DNA from: a virus
Virus record (IMG/VR): IMGVR_UViG_3300044993_000120
Coordinates: 1 to 28,827 of that record
DNA length: 28,827 nt
Strand: one strand, 5' to 3'
Shown here piece by piece: positions 3,605 to 14,634 of the stretch. The notes beneath the pieces are model-generated. The model saw only the letters and a list, made by a program, of their open reading frames with translations, did not search any database and had not been told where the DNA came from. Positions within the stretch are counted from its first letter, which is position 1. Each line of letters opens with the position of its first letter. Both the position numbers and the translations under genes were made by a program.

Positions 3605-4549
3605 ATGCTATACCAAAGCCAACGAGATAGTAGATGGGCAAATCATAAATTAGGTTTTAGCAATGAAACTATCGGAAATTTTGGCTGTGTCATCACTTGT
3701 CTTGCTAATCTTTTTGAAATCACTCCTTTACAGATGAATGAATGGATGAAGAATAATGGAGCATTCGTAAATCAAAATTTAACATACTGGGCAAAGATAC
3801 CAGGCTTCATTTATAGAGGTTGGTCTTACAATAATGATGAGGTTAAAAAAGCAATTAGTCAATATGGTGCTGTTATTGTAGAAGTGGATTTTGATAATAA
3901 TCCACGAACCGATTTGTCTCATTATGTCATCTTCATTGGCAATCAGAAACTATTTGATGTGTGGGACGGAAAAGAAAAACCGACTTCAATTTATTCTATT
4001 TTGAAAGGTTATGTAGTTTATGATATTGAGAAAGCAAAGGCTTACTTTAAAAATCAATTTAGCAATAGTCAAGATAATTATTACAAAGGAATTGATATGA
4101 ATAATAAGGAAAGCGTAAAAGTGTGTATTGATGAGTGGAAGAGAGTTGTTGATGGTTATTATGTGAAAAAAGAAGAATATGAAGCAAAGATAAAAGAATT
4201 AAACGATAAATACCAAAGAGAGATTGACGATAAGGAAAAGACAATTATAAATCTTAATACCCAGATTGATAACTTAACAAAGCAAAATCTTCAACTAATT
4301 AAAGATAACGAAATGCTTAATGATTATAAAAATAAATACAGTGAATTTGGAAAACAATTAGAAGAGTTGACAAAAGAGCATACGCAATTAAAGATTGATT
4401 TTGGAAATGCGAAAGAGGAATGGGTAATAAAAGAGCAAGGATATCTAAAACAGATTAAGACTTTACAGACAAAGTATGAAGCAACTAAATCACCATTGAA
4501 AAAGTTATTAATAGATTATATTTACGGAAAAACCCAAATTAAAAGTTAA
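3605..4549 (+). CDS. Endolysin candidate: C39-like cysteine peptidase plus coiled coil
   Basis: 314 residues. Residues 1-140 match the C39-like papain fold: YQSQRDSRWANHKLG (oxyanion Gln), GNFGCVITCLANL with catalytic Cys28, DLSHYVIFIG with His106, and FDVWDG with Asp118. Such domains cut peptides and occur in phage endolysins. Residues about 165-300 are a long K/E/Q-rich coiled coil, which is unusual for a cell-wall-binding region and may oligomerise the enzyme or hold it near the membrane. There is no signal peptide, so release needs a holin, and two membrane proteins follow directly. Peptidoglycan-peptide cleavage is inferred from fold and context; a tail-associated peptidase is the alternative. 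Confidence 0.65.
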   Translation: MLYQSQRDSRWANHKLGFSNETIGNFGCVITCLANLFEITPLQMNEWMKNNGAFVNQNLTYWAKIPGFIYRGWSYNNDEVKKAISQYGAVIVEVDFDNNPRTDLSHYVIFIGNQKLFDVWDGKEKPTSIYSILKGYVVYDIEKAKAYFKNQFSNSQDNYYKGIDMNNKESVKVCIDEWKRVVDGYYVKKEEYEAKIKELNDKYQREIDDKEKTIINLNTQIDNLTKQNLQLIKDNEMLNDYKNKYSEFGKQLEELTKEHTQLKIDFGNAKEEWVIKEQGYLKQIKTLQTKYEATKSPLKKLLIDYIYGKTQIKS

Positions 4550-4571
4550 GGATTTTTAGCAAAGTAAAGGT

Positions 4572-4859
4572 ATGATTGCGAGGATTAAAAAAGAGCCAAC
4601 TATAATAGACGAAAAAACAAGGATTTCATTACAGACCAATAACTTATGGGCGATATTGATGTCTGCGGTAGTGGTTGCTATATCTTGGGCTTCATTAGTA
4701 AATAAGATTGAATTGCTTAATCAAAAATTAGATTTTGTCGCTCAAAGACAAGAGGAGTTAGCACAAGAGTTTAAAGAATGGAAGAAGCAAGAAGAAAAAA
4801 GAATTAGTGACTTGGAGGTTGGATTAGCAGAGGTTAGGTCTATATTAAAAGTTAAATAA
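4572..4859 (+). CDS. Membrane-anchored coiled-coil protein, probable lysis accessory
   Basis: 95 residues. A hydrophilic N-terminus is followed by one membrane helix at about 25-43 (LWAILMSAVVVAISWASLV) and then a continuous coiled coil to the end. The layout resembles XhlA-like or holin-accessory proteins, though XhlA places its helix at the C-terminus. It sits between the endolysin and a two-helix holin candidate. The coiled coil could contact that of the endolysin; this is inference. The gene ends with ILKVK-stop, encoded by a TTAAAAGTTAA element shared with other gene ends here. Confidence 0.55.
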   Translation: MIARIKKEPTIIDEKTRISLQTNNLWAILMSAVVVAISWASLVNKIELLNQKLDFVAQRQEELAQEFKEWKKQEEKRISDLEVGLAEVRSILKVK

Positions 4860-4868
4860 AAAAAAGAT

Positions 4869-5036
4869 ATGGAAAAACTATTAAGTAGAAAATTTATAAT
4901 GACGGTGGGATTGGTGGTTTTGTCTTATATTTTAGTATTAGTTGGTAAAATGACAAGTAAAGAATGGATTGAGTTTTCAATGGTGGTTGCTGGAATTTAT
5001 ACGAGCGGTAATGTGGTAAGTAAGTTTGCTAAATAG
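4869..5036 (+). CDS. Small holin candidate, 55 aa
   Basis: From ATG 4869 to TAG 5034-5036. The protein starts MEKLLSRKFIMTVGLVVLSY and has two hydrophobic segments (about 9-26 and 37-50) separated by a charged turn (GKMTSKEWIE). Two short helices, a charged N-terminus and a position next to an endolysin fit small class II holins. It would form the membrane lesion that releases the endolysin. No sequence family was recognised; the call rests on size, topology and position. Confidence 0.6.
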   Translation: MEKLLSRKFIMTVGLVVLSYILVLVGKMTSKEWIEFSMVVAGIYTSGNVVSKFAK

Positions 5037-5042
5037 AATTAT

Positions 5043-5112
5043 GGGGGCTTAGTTTAATGCAGAACAGGGGTCTCCAAAGCCTCTAGTGGGGGTTCAAATC
5101 CCTCAGCCTCTG
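5043..5112 (+). tRNA. tRNA-Trp (CCA), atypical
   Basis: A complete cloverleaf can be folded. The acceptor is 5043-5049 with 5105-5111. The D stem GTTT/GAAC has a 6-nt loop (5056-5061). The anticodon stem is 5067-5071 with 5079-5083, and its loop CTCCAAA places CCA at 5074-5076. The T stem GGGGG/CCCTC has loop TTCAAAT. The discriminator is G73 (5112), as expected for Trp. CCA is not encoded; CTT follows. The D loop is one base shorter than usual and lacks the second G of the GG pair, and the acceptor has G1-U72 and G3-U70 wobbles. The gene lies 7 bases before the HNH start. It may supplement host tRNA; no integrase was seen that could use it as an att site. Confidence 0.85.
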
Positions 5113-5119
5113 CTTAAAA

Positions 5120-5584: not shown

Positions 5585-5809
5585 ATGAAAAATTTTGTTT
5601 TTACAAGGTGTTTTATCTGCGGTAGAAATGAAAAACTTTATAGAAAGATAATGTATTCTAATGGTAAAGCAATCCTACTCCCGAATAAGTTTTATATCTG
5701 CGACCATTGTTATAAAATAGAGACGAATAAAAAATATACTTTACCCGATGGTATGACTTATGAATGGAGACGGGTTTATAGTTTTAAAGATGTTTTTAAA
5801 TACGGTTGA
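5585..5809 (+). CDS. Small zinc-ribbon protein, 74 aa
   Basis: It contains CFICG near residue 9 and CDHC near residue 39, forming a four-Cys zinc site, with a basic and aromatic C-terminus (YEWRRVYSFKDVFKYG). It is the last gene before the promoter and structured leader of the replication region, and its final codons overlap the -35 box of that promoter. It may act in transcription or DNA binding, by analogy with other phage zinc ribbons. No family was recognised. Confidence 0.6.
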   Translation: MKNFVFTRCFICGRNEKLYRKIMYSNGKAILLPNKFYICDHCYKIETNKKYTLPDGMTYEWRRVYSFKDVFKYG

Positions 5810-5834
5810 CAAAATTTAAAATATATTTTATTAT
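5806..5834 (+). promoter_or_regulatory. Strong sigma-70-type promoter of the replication leader
   Basis: TTGACA at 5806-5811, a 17-base spacer, then TATTAT at 5829-5834. The predicted start is near 5841, so the first transcribed region is the structured leader ending at 5978. Confidence 0.75.
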
Positions 5835-5861
5835 TAAATAAGGGACAACGAGTAGTAAAAG

Positions 5862-5978
5862 GCTGGGGGGTTGAAAATAGGTGAGGTATAGAGTATAATT
5901 TGATAATCCCGAATTTATAACTCCTATACCTCACCAGCCCCCCAGCTGGTTAGGAGTTATAAGTTTGGGATTTTTTTT
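5862..5978 (+). promoter_or_regulatory. Structured leader RNA / probable attenuator before the initiator gene
   Basis: Three pairings are visible. A: GCTGGGGGG (5862-5870) with CCCCCCAGC (5938-5946). B: GGTGAGGTATAG (5880-5891) with CTATACCTCACC (5924-5935). C: 5905-5926 with 5951-5972, 22 pairs including two G-U. Pairing C starts inside the B loop and overlaps B, so C excludes the full A+B fold or forms a pseudoknot with it. C is followed by eight T residues. This is the layout of an attenuator with two competing states, placed directly before the initiator ATG at 5979. The trigger (ligand, antisense RNA or protein) is unknown. Confidence 0.7.
5905..5978 (+). terminator. Intrinsic terminator immediately before ATG 5979
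   Basis: A 22-bp stem (5905-5926 with 5951-5972) carries an inner 6-bp hairpin, ACCAGC/GCTGGT (5933-5938 with 5945-5950), and is followed by the T tract 5971-5978. Transcripts stopping here would not include the initiator gene. Confidence 0.7.
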
Positions 5979-6923
5979 ATGAAATATTTTTTATTTATTA
6001 ATCAAGAGGCGATAATTAAAAATCAAATAAATATATCAATAGAGGAAGCAATTTTATTAGATTATTTATTTTGGTTATGCGCTTCACCGTCAGAAGATGT
6101 GGAAAAACAAAGGATAGTTGAGAATGGAAAAACTTATACTTGGTTTGATTATGGTTATTTTTTAAATCAAATGCCATTATTAAGAGGCAAAACTGCTCCA
6201 AGTATTACTACAAAAATTAAAAAATTAGAAAATGAAGGTCTAATTGAAACTATTTTAAAACATAAAAGAAAATATGTAAGGATATTACCAAAGGCTGATT
6301 TATTATTCAGAAAAACAGAAGAAAAATCGTTAAGAAATCTTAACGATAATGAAGAATCGTTAAGAAATCTTAACGATATCGTTAAGAAAACTAAACGAAT
6401 AAATATATTAAATAATAATATATTTCTATCTAATAATAAATTAGATAGAAATGGTCTAACGACCAAAAAACAATTTGGTAACGGGGAAGTTAATTTGATT
6501 TTAGAGAAATTTAAGCAATTAAAAGGCTTTTATCCTACCGATAAAGACCCGAGACGCCGGGCTTGGAATATCGTCCAGCAAATAAATACCTTCTTAAAGA
6601 AAAATCCTATCTTAATTGAGAAATATGGTTTTACTTTTGAGAAAATGGTTGATAAGTTTTTTAATATATTAAAATCAAAAGATTATTGGGCTTATATTGA
6701 GAATCTTGATACTTGCAGGCGGAAATTAAATGTTTTCTTTGGAGCGTTGGAAAAAAAGATTAAGGCTTTGGAAACTATGAAAATAGTTGAAAAATCATTA
6801 GAAAAACAAAACGAATACATTGAAAACAAAAGAAAAGAGGAAAATATAGCCGAAATACCTCATATTAAAGAAGAAATTGATGAAATGAGACGAAAACTTG
6901 CGGAAAAATTTAAAATTGAGTAA
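5979..6923 (+). CDS. Replication initiator / replisome organiser-like protein
   Basis: 314 residues. Residues 1-110 look like a winged helix-turn-helix of phage and plasmid replication proteins: SIEEAILLDYLFWLC, then KTAPSITTKIKKLENEGLIE and a basic wing. Residues 115-165 are low complexity and include the duplicated SLRNLND. Residues 170-310 form a helical domain (FKQLKGFYPTDKDPRRRAWN) and a coiled C-terminus. The central DNA has iteron-like repeats and an AT-rich stretch, as in lambda O, where the origin lies inside the gene. With no helicase or polymerase in the window, it probably recruits the host replisome. Expression is probably limited by the leader terminator abutting its ATG. No close family was identified. 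Confidence 0.65.
   Translation: MKYFLFINQEAIIKNQINISIEEAILLDYLFWLCASPSEDVEKQRIVENGKTYTWFDYGYFLNQMPLLRGKTAPSITTKIKKLENEGLIETILKHKRKYVRILPKADLLFRKTEEKSLRNLNDNEESLRNLNDIVKKTKRINILNNNIFLSNNKLDRNGLTTKKQFGNGEVNLILEKFKQLKGFYPTDKDPRRRAWNIVQQINTFLKKNPILIEKYGFTFEKMVDKFFNILKSKDYWAYIENLDTCRRKLNVFFGALEKKIKALETMKIVEKSLEKQNEYIENKRKEENIAEIPHIKEEIDEMRRKLAEKFKIE
6326..6387 (+). repeat. Iteron-like inverted repeats inside the initiator gene
   Basis: Two perfect inverted repeats, ATCGTTAAGA-AA-TCTTAACGAT, lie at 6326-6347 and 6356-6377, a 30-base period (about three helical turns). A third half site, ATCGTTAAGA, is at 6378-6387. They encode the repeated SLRNLND and then IVKK. They are likely binding sites for the initiator dimer. 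Confidence 0.75.
6388..6451 (+). other. Putative origin: AT-rich unwinding tract and hairpin
   Basis: The iterons are followed by a nearly pure A/T run (about 6399-6425). A perfect 12-bp inverted repeat comes next: TTTCTATCTAAT (6423-6434), spacer AATAA, ATTAGATAGAAA (6440-6451). Iterons beside an unwinding element inside the initiator gene match lambdoid origins. Function is inferred from layout. Confidence 0.55.
6655..6676 (+). repeat. Palindromic element copy inside the initiator gene
   Basis: TTTTAATATATTAAAA at 6659-6674, in frame as FNILK. The surrounding 22 bases are identical to 7346-7367. Confidence 0.7.
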
Positions 6924-7656: not shown

Positions 7657-8696
7657 ATTTAGATTGGACTTTCTTTCAAAGTTGGAATAGTGGTTTGGAA
7701 TTAGCAAGGAATGGGAATAAACGGGAAATTAAACCACGTGATATAATTTGGGCTTCCGAGATTGGAAAATCCTATATAGATGTTTATCTTGCGTTGAAAG
7801 GTGAAAAACCAAGTAATGATTTTTCTCAGACTACCCTGCGAAAGTTTGATGCGGGGATAATTTGGGAAAACATTATTGGAGTAATTCTTAAACGAGTAGG
7901 GTTGTTAAAAGAAAGTCAAGAATGGGTAAAGTATGAGATGAAAGGTTGTTTACCGATTACGGGAAGATTAGATTTTACCGCTGGTGGGAAAATTGACAAA
8001 GAAAAGGCTTTATCCGAATTGGAAAATATCAAGGAATTACTACCTAATAATGTTTATGAGGCTTCAAAAACGATTATTGATAATTTGGCTGGAAAGGAAT
8101 TAAAAGAAATTGTTTTGGAAATTAAGACCGTGTCTTCATTTATGTTTGATAAATACGAAACAAGCGGACAAGCGAATGGGAATCATAGATTACAGATACT
8201 TCATTATCTATTGGCTAAAAATATGCCAGAAGGACATATTGTTTATATTAGTAAAGATGACGCCCGTATGTTAGAGGTTGGGGTATTCAATCCCTCATTC
8301 GTAAATGATGAATATACAAAATGGATTAAAGAATTAAGTGGTTATTATTACGCTAACGAGCAACCACCAAAAGAAAAAGAAATTATTTTTGATGAAGAAT
8401 GGGGGAAATTTACTTTGAATTGGAAAGTGTTATATTCAAGTTATTTGACAAAAATTTACGGATACAAAGACCAAGAAGAAGTAAGACAGATGTATCAGCC
8501 GTTAGCGGAAAGTTGGAATAGAGTTTTGTCAAGGGTTAAAGGCGGAAAGGATATGACGAAAGATAATTTGGAAAAGATTAAAGCCATTAAGGATTGGGGA
8601 TTTGATTATGAAGAGATAATTGAAAAATTAAAAGTTAATTGGGAAAAAGAAAAGGAACAAAAAGAGGCGGATTTAGAAATTGAGTTAAAAGGTTAA
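7653..8696 (+). CDS. RecB/Cas4-like PD-(D/E)XK exonuclease
   Basis: 347 residues. The PD-(D/E)XK core is visible: ASEIGKSYIDVYLAL and WEN (Glu72) near the N-terminus, GRLDF with Asp107, LEIKTVSS with Glu156 and Lys158, then QILHY (Gln181-x3-Tyr185), the extra motif of RecB/Cas4-family nucleases. The C-terminal third is helical and charged. No iron-sulphur cysteine set is seen, so it is closer to phage RecB-like exonucleases than to Cas4. It probably resects DNA for phage recombination, with the SSB at 11196 and the resolvase at 13129. It overlaps the preceding gene by 4 bases. Confidence 0.8.
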   Translation: MNLDWTFFQSWNSGLELARNGNKREIKPRDIIWASEIGKSYIDVYLALKGEKPSNDFSQTTLRKFDAGIIWENIIGVILKRVGLLKESQEWVKYEMKGCLPITGRLDFTAGGKIDKEKALSELENIKELLPNNVYEASKTIIDNLAGKELKEIVLEIKTVSSFMFDKYETSGQANGNHRLQILHYLLAKNMPEGHIVYISKDDARMLEVGVFNPSFVNDEYTKWIKELSGYYYANEQPPKEKEIIFDEEWGKFTLNWKVLYSSYLTKIYGYKDQEEVRQMYQPLAESWNRVLSRVKGGKDMTKDNLEKIKAIKDWGFDYEEIIEKLKVNWEKEKEQKEADLEIELKG

Positions 8697-14235: not shown

Positions 14236-14634
14236 ATGGAAGAAAAAAATAAAGGCAGACCAAAAATAGATTTACAAGCTGAATTTGAAAAAATTAAACC
14301 TTTTTTAAAGGTTGGTTATAGCCTTCATAAAGCCTGTATTTTAGGAAGAGTAAATTATACGACCTTATATAATTATTACAAGGAAGATGAAGAATTTAGA
14401 AATATGGTTGAAAGAGAAAGGAATTTAGTTAATGTTTTAGCAAGGCAGGTTATTATAGAGAAAATAAGAGATGAAAAAGATTCAAGATTGGCATTAGAGT
14501 GGTTAGACCGAATGGAAAAAGATGATTTTAGCAAAAAATTAGAGTTAGAATTGACTAATGAAAACGATATTGGAGCAAAAGAATTGTTATTTTATCTTTT
14601 CAAAAAACAAAATCAAAATGGAGCAAAAGAATAA
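14236..14634 (+). CDS. terS: Terminase small subunit
   Basis: 132 residues. A helix-turn-helix lies in the first half (GYSLHKACILGRVNYTTLYN, YYKEDEEFRNMVERERN), followed by a helical core (VLARQVIIEKIRDEKDSRLA LEWLDRMEKD) like phage small terminases that recognise the packaging site. It lies directly upstream of the large terminase, with a 38-base gap. It binds phage DNA and regulates the motor. The assignment rests on pattern plus position. No cos-like sequence was found, so headful packaging is possible. Confidence 0.75.
   Translation: MEEKNKGRPKIDLQAEFEKIKPFLKVGYSLHKACILGRVNYTTLYNYYKEDEEFRNMVERERNLVNVLARQVIIEKIRDEKDSRLALEWLDRMEKDDFSKKLELELTNENDIGAKELLFYLFKKQNQNGAKE

Follow-up and report, generated by a model that had tools for sequence, protein, structure and literature searches.

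The window analysed here is the whole 28,827-nt viral record IMGVR_UViG_3300044993_000120. On its plus strand, after the tail and lysis genes, a tRNA-Trp gene and an HNH gene, and before the early genes, lies a leader (5843-5978) that follows a promoter-like site, P1, and runs up to the start codon of a probable replication initiator gene; the features of this region are collected in the table. The predicted start of P1 transcription is at about 5841-5843, and the -35 box of P1 shares bases with the stop codon of the ORF before it. The tRNA-Trp (CCA) gene, at 5043-5113, is phage-borne and is absent from the related loci examined. Elsewhere in the window, TATAAT-like boxes stand ~8-12 nt before the starts at 14236, 15951, 17912 and 20514, and Shine-Dalgarno sites are few, a combination that suggests leaderless transcripts.

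Table. Features of the leader and of the gene that follows it, in window coordinates.
Feature	Position	Strand	Basis or remark
Promoter-like site P1, TTGACA-17-TATTAT	5806..5834	+	11/12 consensus; -35 5806-5811, -10 5829-5834
Arm A5' (GCTGGGGGG), antiterminator (pre-emptor)	5862..5870	+	fold energies; shuffle p = 0.002
Internal sense promoter-like site P2, TTGAAA-17-TATAAT	5871..5899	+	11/12; -35 5871-5876, -10 5894-5899
Arm B5' (GGTGAGGTATAG), antiterminator	5880..5891	+	fold energies; 12 bp in 0/4000 shuffles
Terminator arm C5'	5905..5926	+	fold energies, shuffles
Predicted ~70-nt terminated P2 RNA	5905..5976	+	single hairpin, -38.4 kcal/mol; prediction
Arm B3' (CTATACCTCACC), within terminator loop, 3-nt overlap with C5'	5924..5935	+	
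Arm A3' (CCCCCCAGC), C-rich, within terminator loop	5938..5946	+	
Terminator arm C3'	5951..5972	+	
Terminator U8 tract, directly before ATG 5979	5971..5978	+	
Probable replication initiator gene, 314 aa	5979..6923	+	N-domain homologues L033-L039; neighbours and C-domains of homologues
Five ATCGTTAAGA iterons, two inverted, within the initiator gene	6326..6387	+	followed by an AT-rich stretch (to 6440)

The protein encoded downstream of the leader itself matches no Pfam or PHROG family, tblastn against plasmids found nothing, and a search by initiator protein among viral contigs, phages and plasmids returned no close relatives. Its N-domain is common to seven loci (L036, L037 and L038 being identical to each other), and it is the homologues there that identify it: the gene following the initiator homologue in L035 and L036 is an IstB/DnaC-like AAA+ loader, followed in L036 by a gene for a TOPRIM-DnaB protein (primase-helicase); the C-domains of the L035 and L036 initiators match PHROG DnaD-like / O-like replication families; and the L035 homologue matches annotated replisome organizers. 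These neighbours and C-domains bear out the earlier note, which had called the downstream gene an initiator, and we regard that assignment, inferred from homologues, as well supported. In lambda O the origin, with iterons and then an AT-rich stretch, lies inside the initiator gene; the iterons and AT-rich stretch inside the window gene are a probable origin of this lambda-O-like kind. With these in-gene iterons, and with the loader and helicase neighbours in L035 and L036, the gene resembles a replisome organizer of the DnaD- or lambda-O-like type. The iteron palindromes also scored as an interleaved element, and were discarded as repeats rather than a leader; the initiator model that AlphaFold gave in single-sequence mode had a mean pLDDT of 51, too low for use. 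In L036 an HNH-like domain (CEWCNN...HHFP...CTACH) appears to be inserted between the two initiator domains (4001-4957).

Two long folds can form in the leader. One (ANTI) is a nested hairpin made of helix A, 9 bp, and helix B, 12 bp, the latter extended by 3+4 more pairs that reach the upper part of C5'; the other (TERM) is a stem of 22 pairs (20 Watson-Crick and two G-U) with a 24-nt loop, which itself holds an extra 6-bp inner hairpin, ACCAGC/GCTGGT. Writing the 3' arms with a prime, the order along the RNA is A-B-C-B'-A'-C'-U tract-ATG. The earlier note had described the P1 promoter, a 9+12-bp nested hairpin, a 22-pair terminator stem and a T tract ending at the base before ATG 5979; all are present, and both folds exceed what shuffled sequence produces. 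The terminator has 20 Watson-Crick pairs beside the T tract, compared with a maximum of 11 across 1000 shuffles, and the fold of the whole leader has z = -4.3.

The two complete folds exclude each other, as had been proposed, although their overlap in sequence is partial: B' uses 5924-5926 of C, and the extension of B occupies the upper C5' arm. Complete ANTI and complete TERM cannot coexist, because the linker from A' to C3' is 4 nt (5947-5950) and because B' and C share three bases. The large pseudoknot that the earlier note had also allowed for was rejected on loop lengths, since those 4 nt would have to span ~18 bp, which is sterically implausible; a pseudoknot limited to B, of about 9 bp, is possible. 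When each fold is enforced on 5843-5978, ANTI reaches -50.4 and TERM -44.2 kcal/mol, and the computed preference for ANTI holds at 37, 60 and 70 C. In step-wise folding ANTI is complete at about 5945-5950, ahead of the synthesis of C3', and the A/B fold is still preferred at full length; blocking 5843-5895 lets TERM form, at -38.8 kcal/mol.

The leader is also singular within the record. Among 4782 plus-strand positions it ranks first for joint strong prefix and suffix folds, with a lead of ~10 kcal/mol, and no second site with two such rival folds was found when both strands of the 28.8-kb record were scanned; the best dual-fold site on the minus strand reaches -29.2 vs -38.8 for the leader, and at the leader's own place the strength is -38.8 for the plus-strand RNA vs about -26 for the minus strand. 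We dropped the strand asymmetry of the interleaved topology as an argument, since interleaving is symmetric under reverse complement, and use the asymmetry in energy alone. This bias toward the plus-strand RNA, like the U tract and the promoters, fits RNA better than a DNA-level element (origin hairpins or a packaging site) that would have no RNA role; such an element might be expected from the inverted repeats and from the adjoining initiator gene, but the in-gene iterons and AT-rich stretch already provide a probable origin, and we judge it very improbable.

No other terminator-like hairpin in the record comes near the one in the leader in strength, and the position of the latter between late and early genes raises the possibility of a plain terminator that separates the late/tRNA region from the early one, with A and B without function and the initiator living on read-through. 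A and B are, however, well beyond chance and their order recurs in L036, and a promoter that leads straight into an always-active terminator would be of little use to the gene, so that we hold this explanation to be improbable. No consensus promoter was found between the terminator and ATG 5979, and the initiator gene thus needs read-through.

The earlier note missed a second promoter-like site, P2, inside the leader. Only five promoter-like sites across the record reach at least 11/12; P1 and P2 are among them, all five are on the plus strand, and shuffled genomes give an expected 1.6 for both strands together. Transcription from P2 is predicted to start at about 5905-5907 (6-8 bases past the -10), that is, on the first bases of terminator arm C5'; the resulting RNA, being without the A and B arms, should always fold as the terminator hairpin and end at the U tract. 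The C-rich apical loop of this RNA (CCCCCA) is complementary to the G-rich A arm, the sequences that pair with A and B lie in its loop and bulge, and in trans it could pair with the A/B arms of a P1 transcript still being made, in a predicted duplex of -42.5 kcal/mol. The minus strand of the whole record has no promoter-like site of 11/12 or better, and in a search for an antisense promoter the minus strand of the leader region yielded only 9/12 sites (5848, 5859 and 6039), at chance density.

The arrangement recurs in a distant relative. The initiator N-domain of L036 is 42% identical to that of the window, and its leader (A 3863-3873/3945-3955, B 3872-3880/3936-3944, C 3883-3909/3956-3982, then a U tract and ATG 4001) keeps the arm order described above with unrelated sequences; the retention of six arms in order without sequence similarity reads as a strong sign of selection on folding. 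Interleaved-helix scores of 57 for the window and 54 for L036 are the top two in about 325 kb of related contigs, none of ten shuffles gave a score of at least 50, and four control phages reach at most 44. The B match of L036 taken alone is modest (p = 0.01, and 0.07 for the second element of L036). In the growing L036 transcript ANTI forms first (-32.4 at 3959) and TERM follows (-46.8), and at full length the terminator fold is favoured, not the A/B fold; the default state may differ between the two leaders. A counterpart of P2 was not found in L036, whose own promoter is a weak match to the consensus. A weaker interleaved helix pair (3684-3780; 8 bp, 26-nt arms) lies some 180 nt upstream of the L036 initiator leader, immediately past the stop of a small ORF, and an ATG-started open frame of ~39 codons (3857-3980) covers the whole A-B-C element of that leader, either a possible leader peptide or chance.

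Closer sequences were of less help. Two contigs from the same metagenome, 3300045922, are 94-95% identical to the window, one ending at window 4921 (L028) and the other beginning at 8243 (L005), and none of the 94-95%-identical contigs examined reaches the leader; the two stop on either side of it, and the assembly may break around the leader. The relatives by terminase and exonuclease (L003-L010, L028-L032) were set aside, as they end before the leader or are without the initiator. The exact 18-mer CCTCACCAGCCCCCCAGC was likewise discarded, its 17 contigs all representing a single unrelated GC-rich region.

Among the remaining loci with this initiator N-domain, L033 and L034 have a long plain hairpin, ending ~7 nt short of the initiator ATG, with one compensatory apical change and no U tract; L035 has a long hairpin ahead of the initiator, also without a U tract; and in L039 an SSAP-like gene (ATG 2413) is directly preceded by an interleaved B-C-B'-C' element (2333-2412, B 2333-2342), which again has no U tract. 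Structure beside the initiator start is a family habit, and its terminator form is found in two members and is not family-wide. The L033/L034 hairpin and the L039 element would suit a switch that acts mainly on translation or RNA processing, in which the AUG-adjacent hairpin blocks the ribosome or serves as an RNase III target, its rival opens up the start region, and termination is secondary or absent; an AGGAG within C3', sequestered in the TERM fold, points the same way. Yet the AGGAG lies ~22 nt from the ATG, too distant for a normal Shine-Dalgarno site, such sites are absent from most genes here, and the U tract directly follows C3' in both the window and L036; for the window leader we consider a switch of this kind unlikely. 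The same architecture would also serve a leader that senses a ligand or a protein, be it a riboswitch or an initiator that regulates itself by binding its own leader, as any factor seizing 5862-5891 gives the same switch. The arms of the window and of L036 share no sequence motif, unlike ligand pockets, and the riboswitch families of Rfam 15 gave no match in the window at the gathering score, so that the riboswitch parallel drawn in the earlier note finds no echo and sensing of this type seems quite unlikely. Low-threshold Rfam matches (miRNA models, and PK-repBA on the minus strand at 14.8 bits vs 45) were dismissed as chance.

We favour, as the likely reading, a leader that is a two-state transcription attenuator of the phage replication initiator. 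That it is a real switch, setting the amount of initiator and so the amount of phage DNA, is very probable, because the distant relative has the same arrangement in wholly different sequence. In the mechanism that we infer, A and B of the P1 transcript would be made first, and B' and A' on emerging would close the nested hairpin and hold the upper part of C5'; ANTI would block timely formation of the terminator, and the initiator gene would be read through as the default, ON state. Were the 5' arm (5862-5891) captured before B' and A' had been made, the C hairpin would form over the U8 tract and transcription would stop before the ATG, the OFF state. The most economical trans-acting signal would be the P2 RNA, whose loop bears B'A' and which would rise with phage copy number; by pairing in trans with A/B of nascent P1 transcripts it would bring about termination, and the outcome would be negative feedback on replication.

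A more specific proposal, which we put forward tentatively and regard as doubtful, is that phage copy number is controlled by the sense-strand P2 RNA, its C-rich loop capturing the G-rich 5' arm and forcing termination, so that the leader would be its own antisense, with no counter-transcript, and that interleaved leaders would make up a recurring class before the replication and recombination genes of these phages. Attenuation of the initiator gene is classical in plasmids; the attenuator reading, if true, would place a plasmid design in a tailed phage from a lineage not yet in culture and would mean that RNA is the means by which some phages keep count of their genomes. Interleaved hairpins ahead of an ATG also give a criterion with which to search for leaders that escape RNA families defined by sequence.

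Our literature search, which covered few subscription papers and is weak evidence of novelty, found no such leader described in a phage of this kind. The nearest phage parallel is with satellite phage P4, in which an RNA of sense origin stops transcription of the replication genes by pairing with sites that flank it (PMC4825925). As in the CI RNA of P4 immunity (C4, RF01695; seqA/seqC), a central segment of the leader, 5905-5946, can pair with either 5862-5898 or 5945-5972; unlike P4, the window has an intrinsic terminator and a separate promoter in place of processing. The covariance models of C4 (RF01695) and isrK gave no match in the window, while P4, as a positive control, matches both, C4 scoring 74.9 bits. 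In Gifsy-1, the short terminated RNA IsrK targets, in trans, the transcript that reads through its own locus (PMC4825925); the predicted P2 RNA would likewise be short, terminated and active in trans on read-through from the same locus, but IsrK activates translation, and an isrK match is absent here.

In pT181 a pre-emptor prevents the terminator directly upstream of repC until antisense RNA binds (PMC5703833). The window leader is like pT181 repC and pIP501 repR in that the gene downstream is an initiator, a terminator-like stem stands directly before the start codon, and an upstream pre-emptor pairs with the 5' arm of the terminator, with a predicted read-through by default; it differs in that pairing of the pre-emptor extends to the terminator loop, that the element belongs to a phage and not a plasmid, that the initiator is of another family, and that antisense promoter sites were seen only at chance level, next to a strong sense-strand promoter within the leader. 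Of the pT181/pIP501-type attenuation put forward in the earlier note, then, the plan of pre-emptor and terminator is supported and recurs in L036, and for an antisense promoter the search gave sites at chance density. With such sites, and with an initiator from another family, we do not file the leader as a member of the pT181 group, but it would work like pT181.
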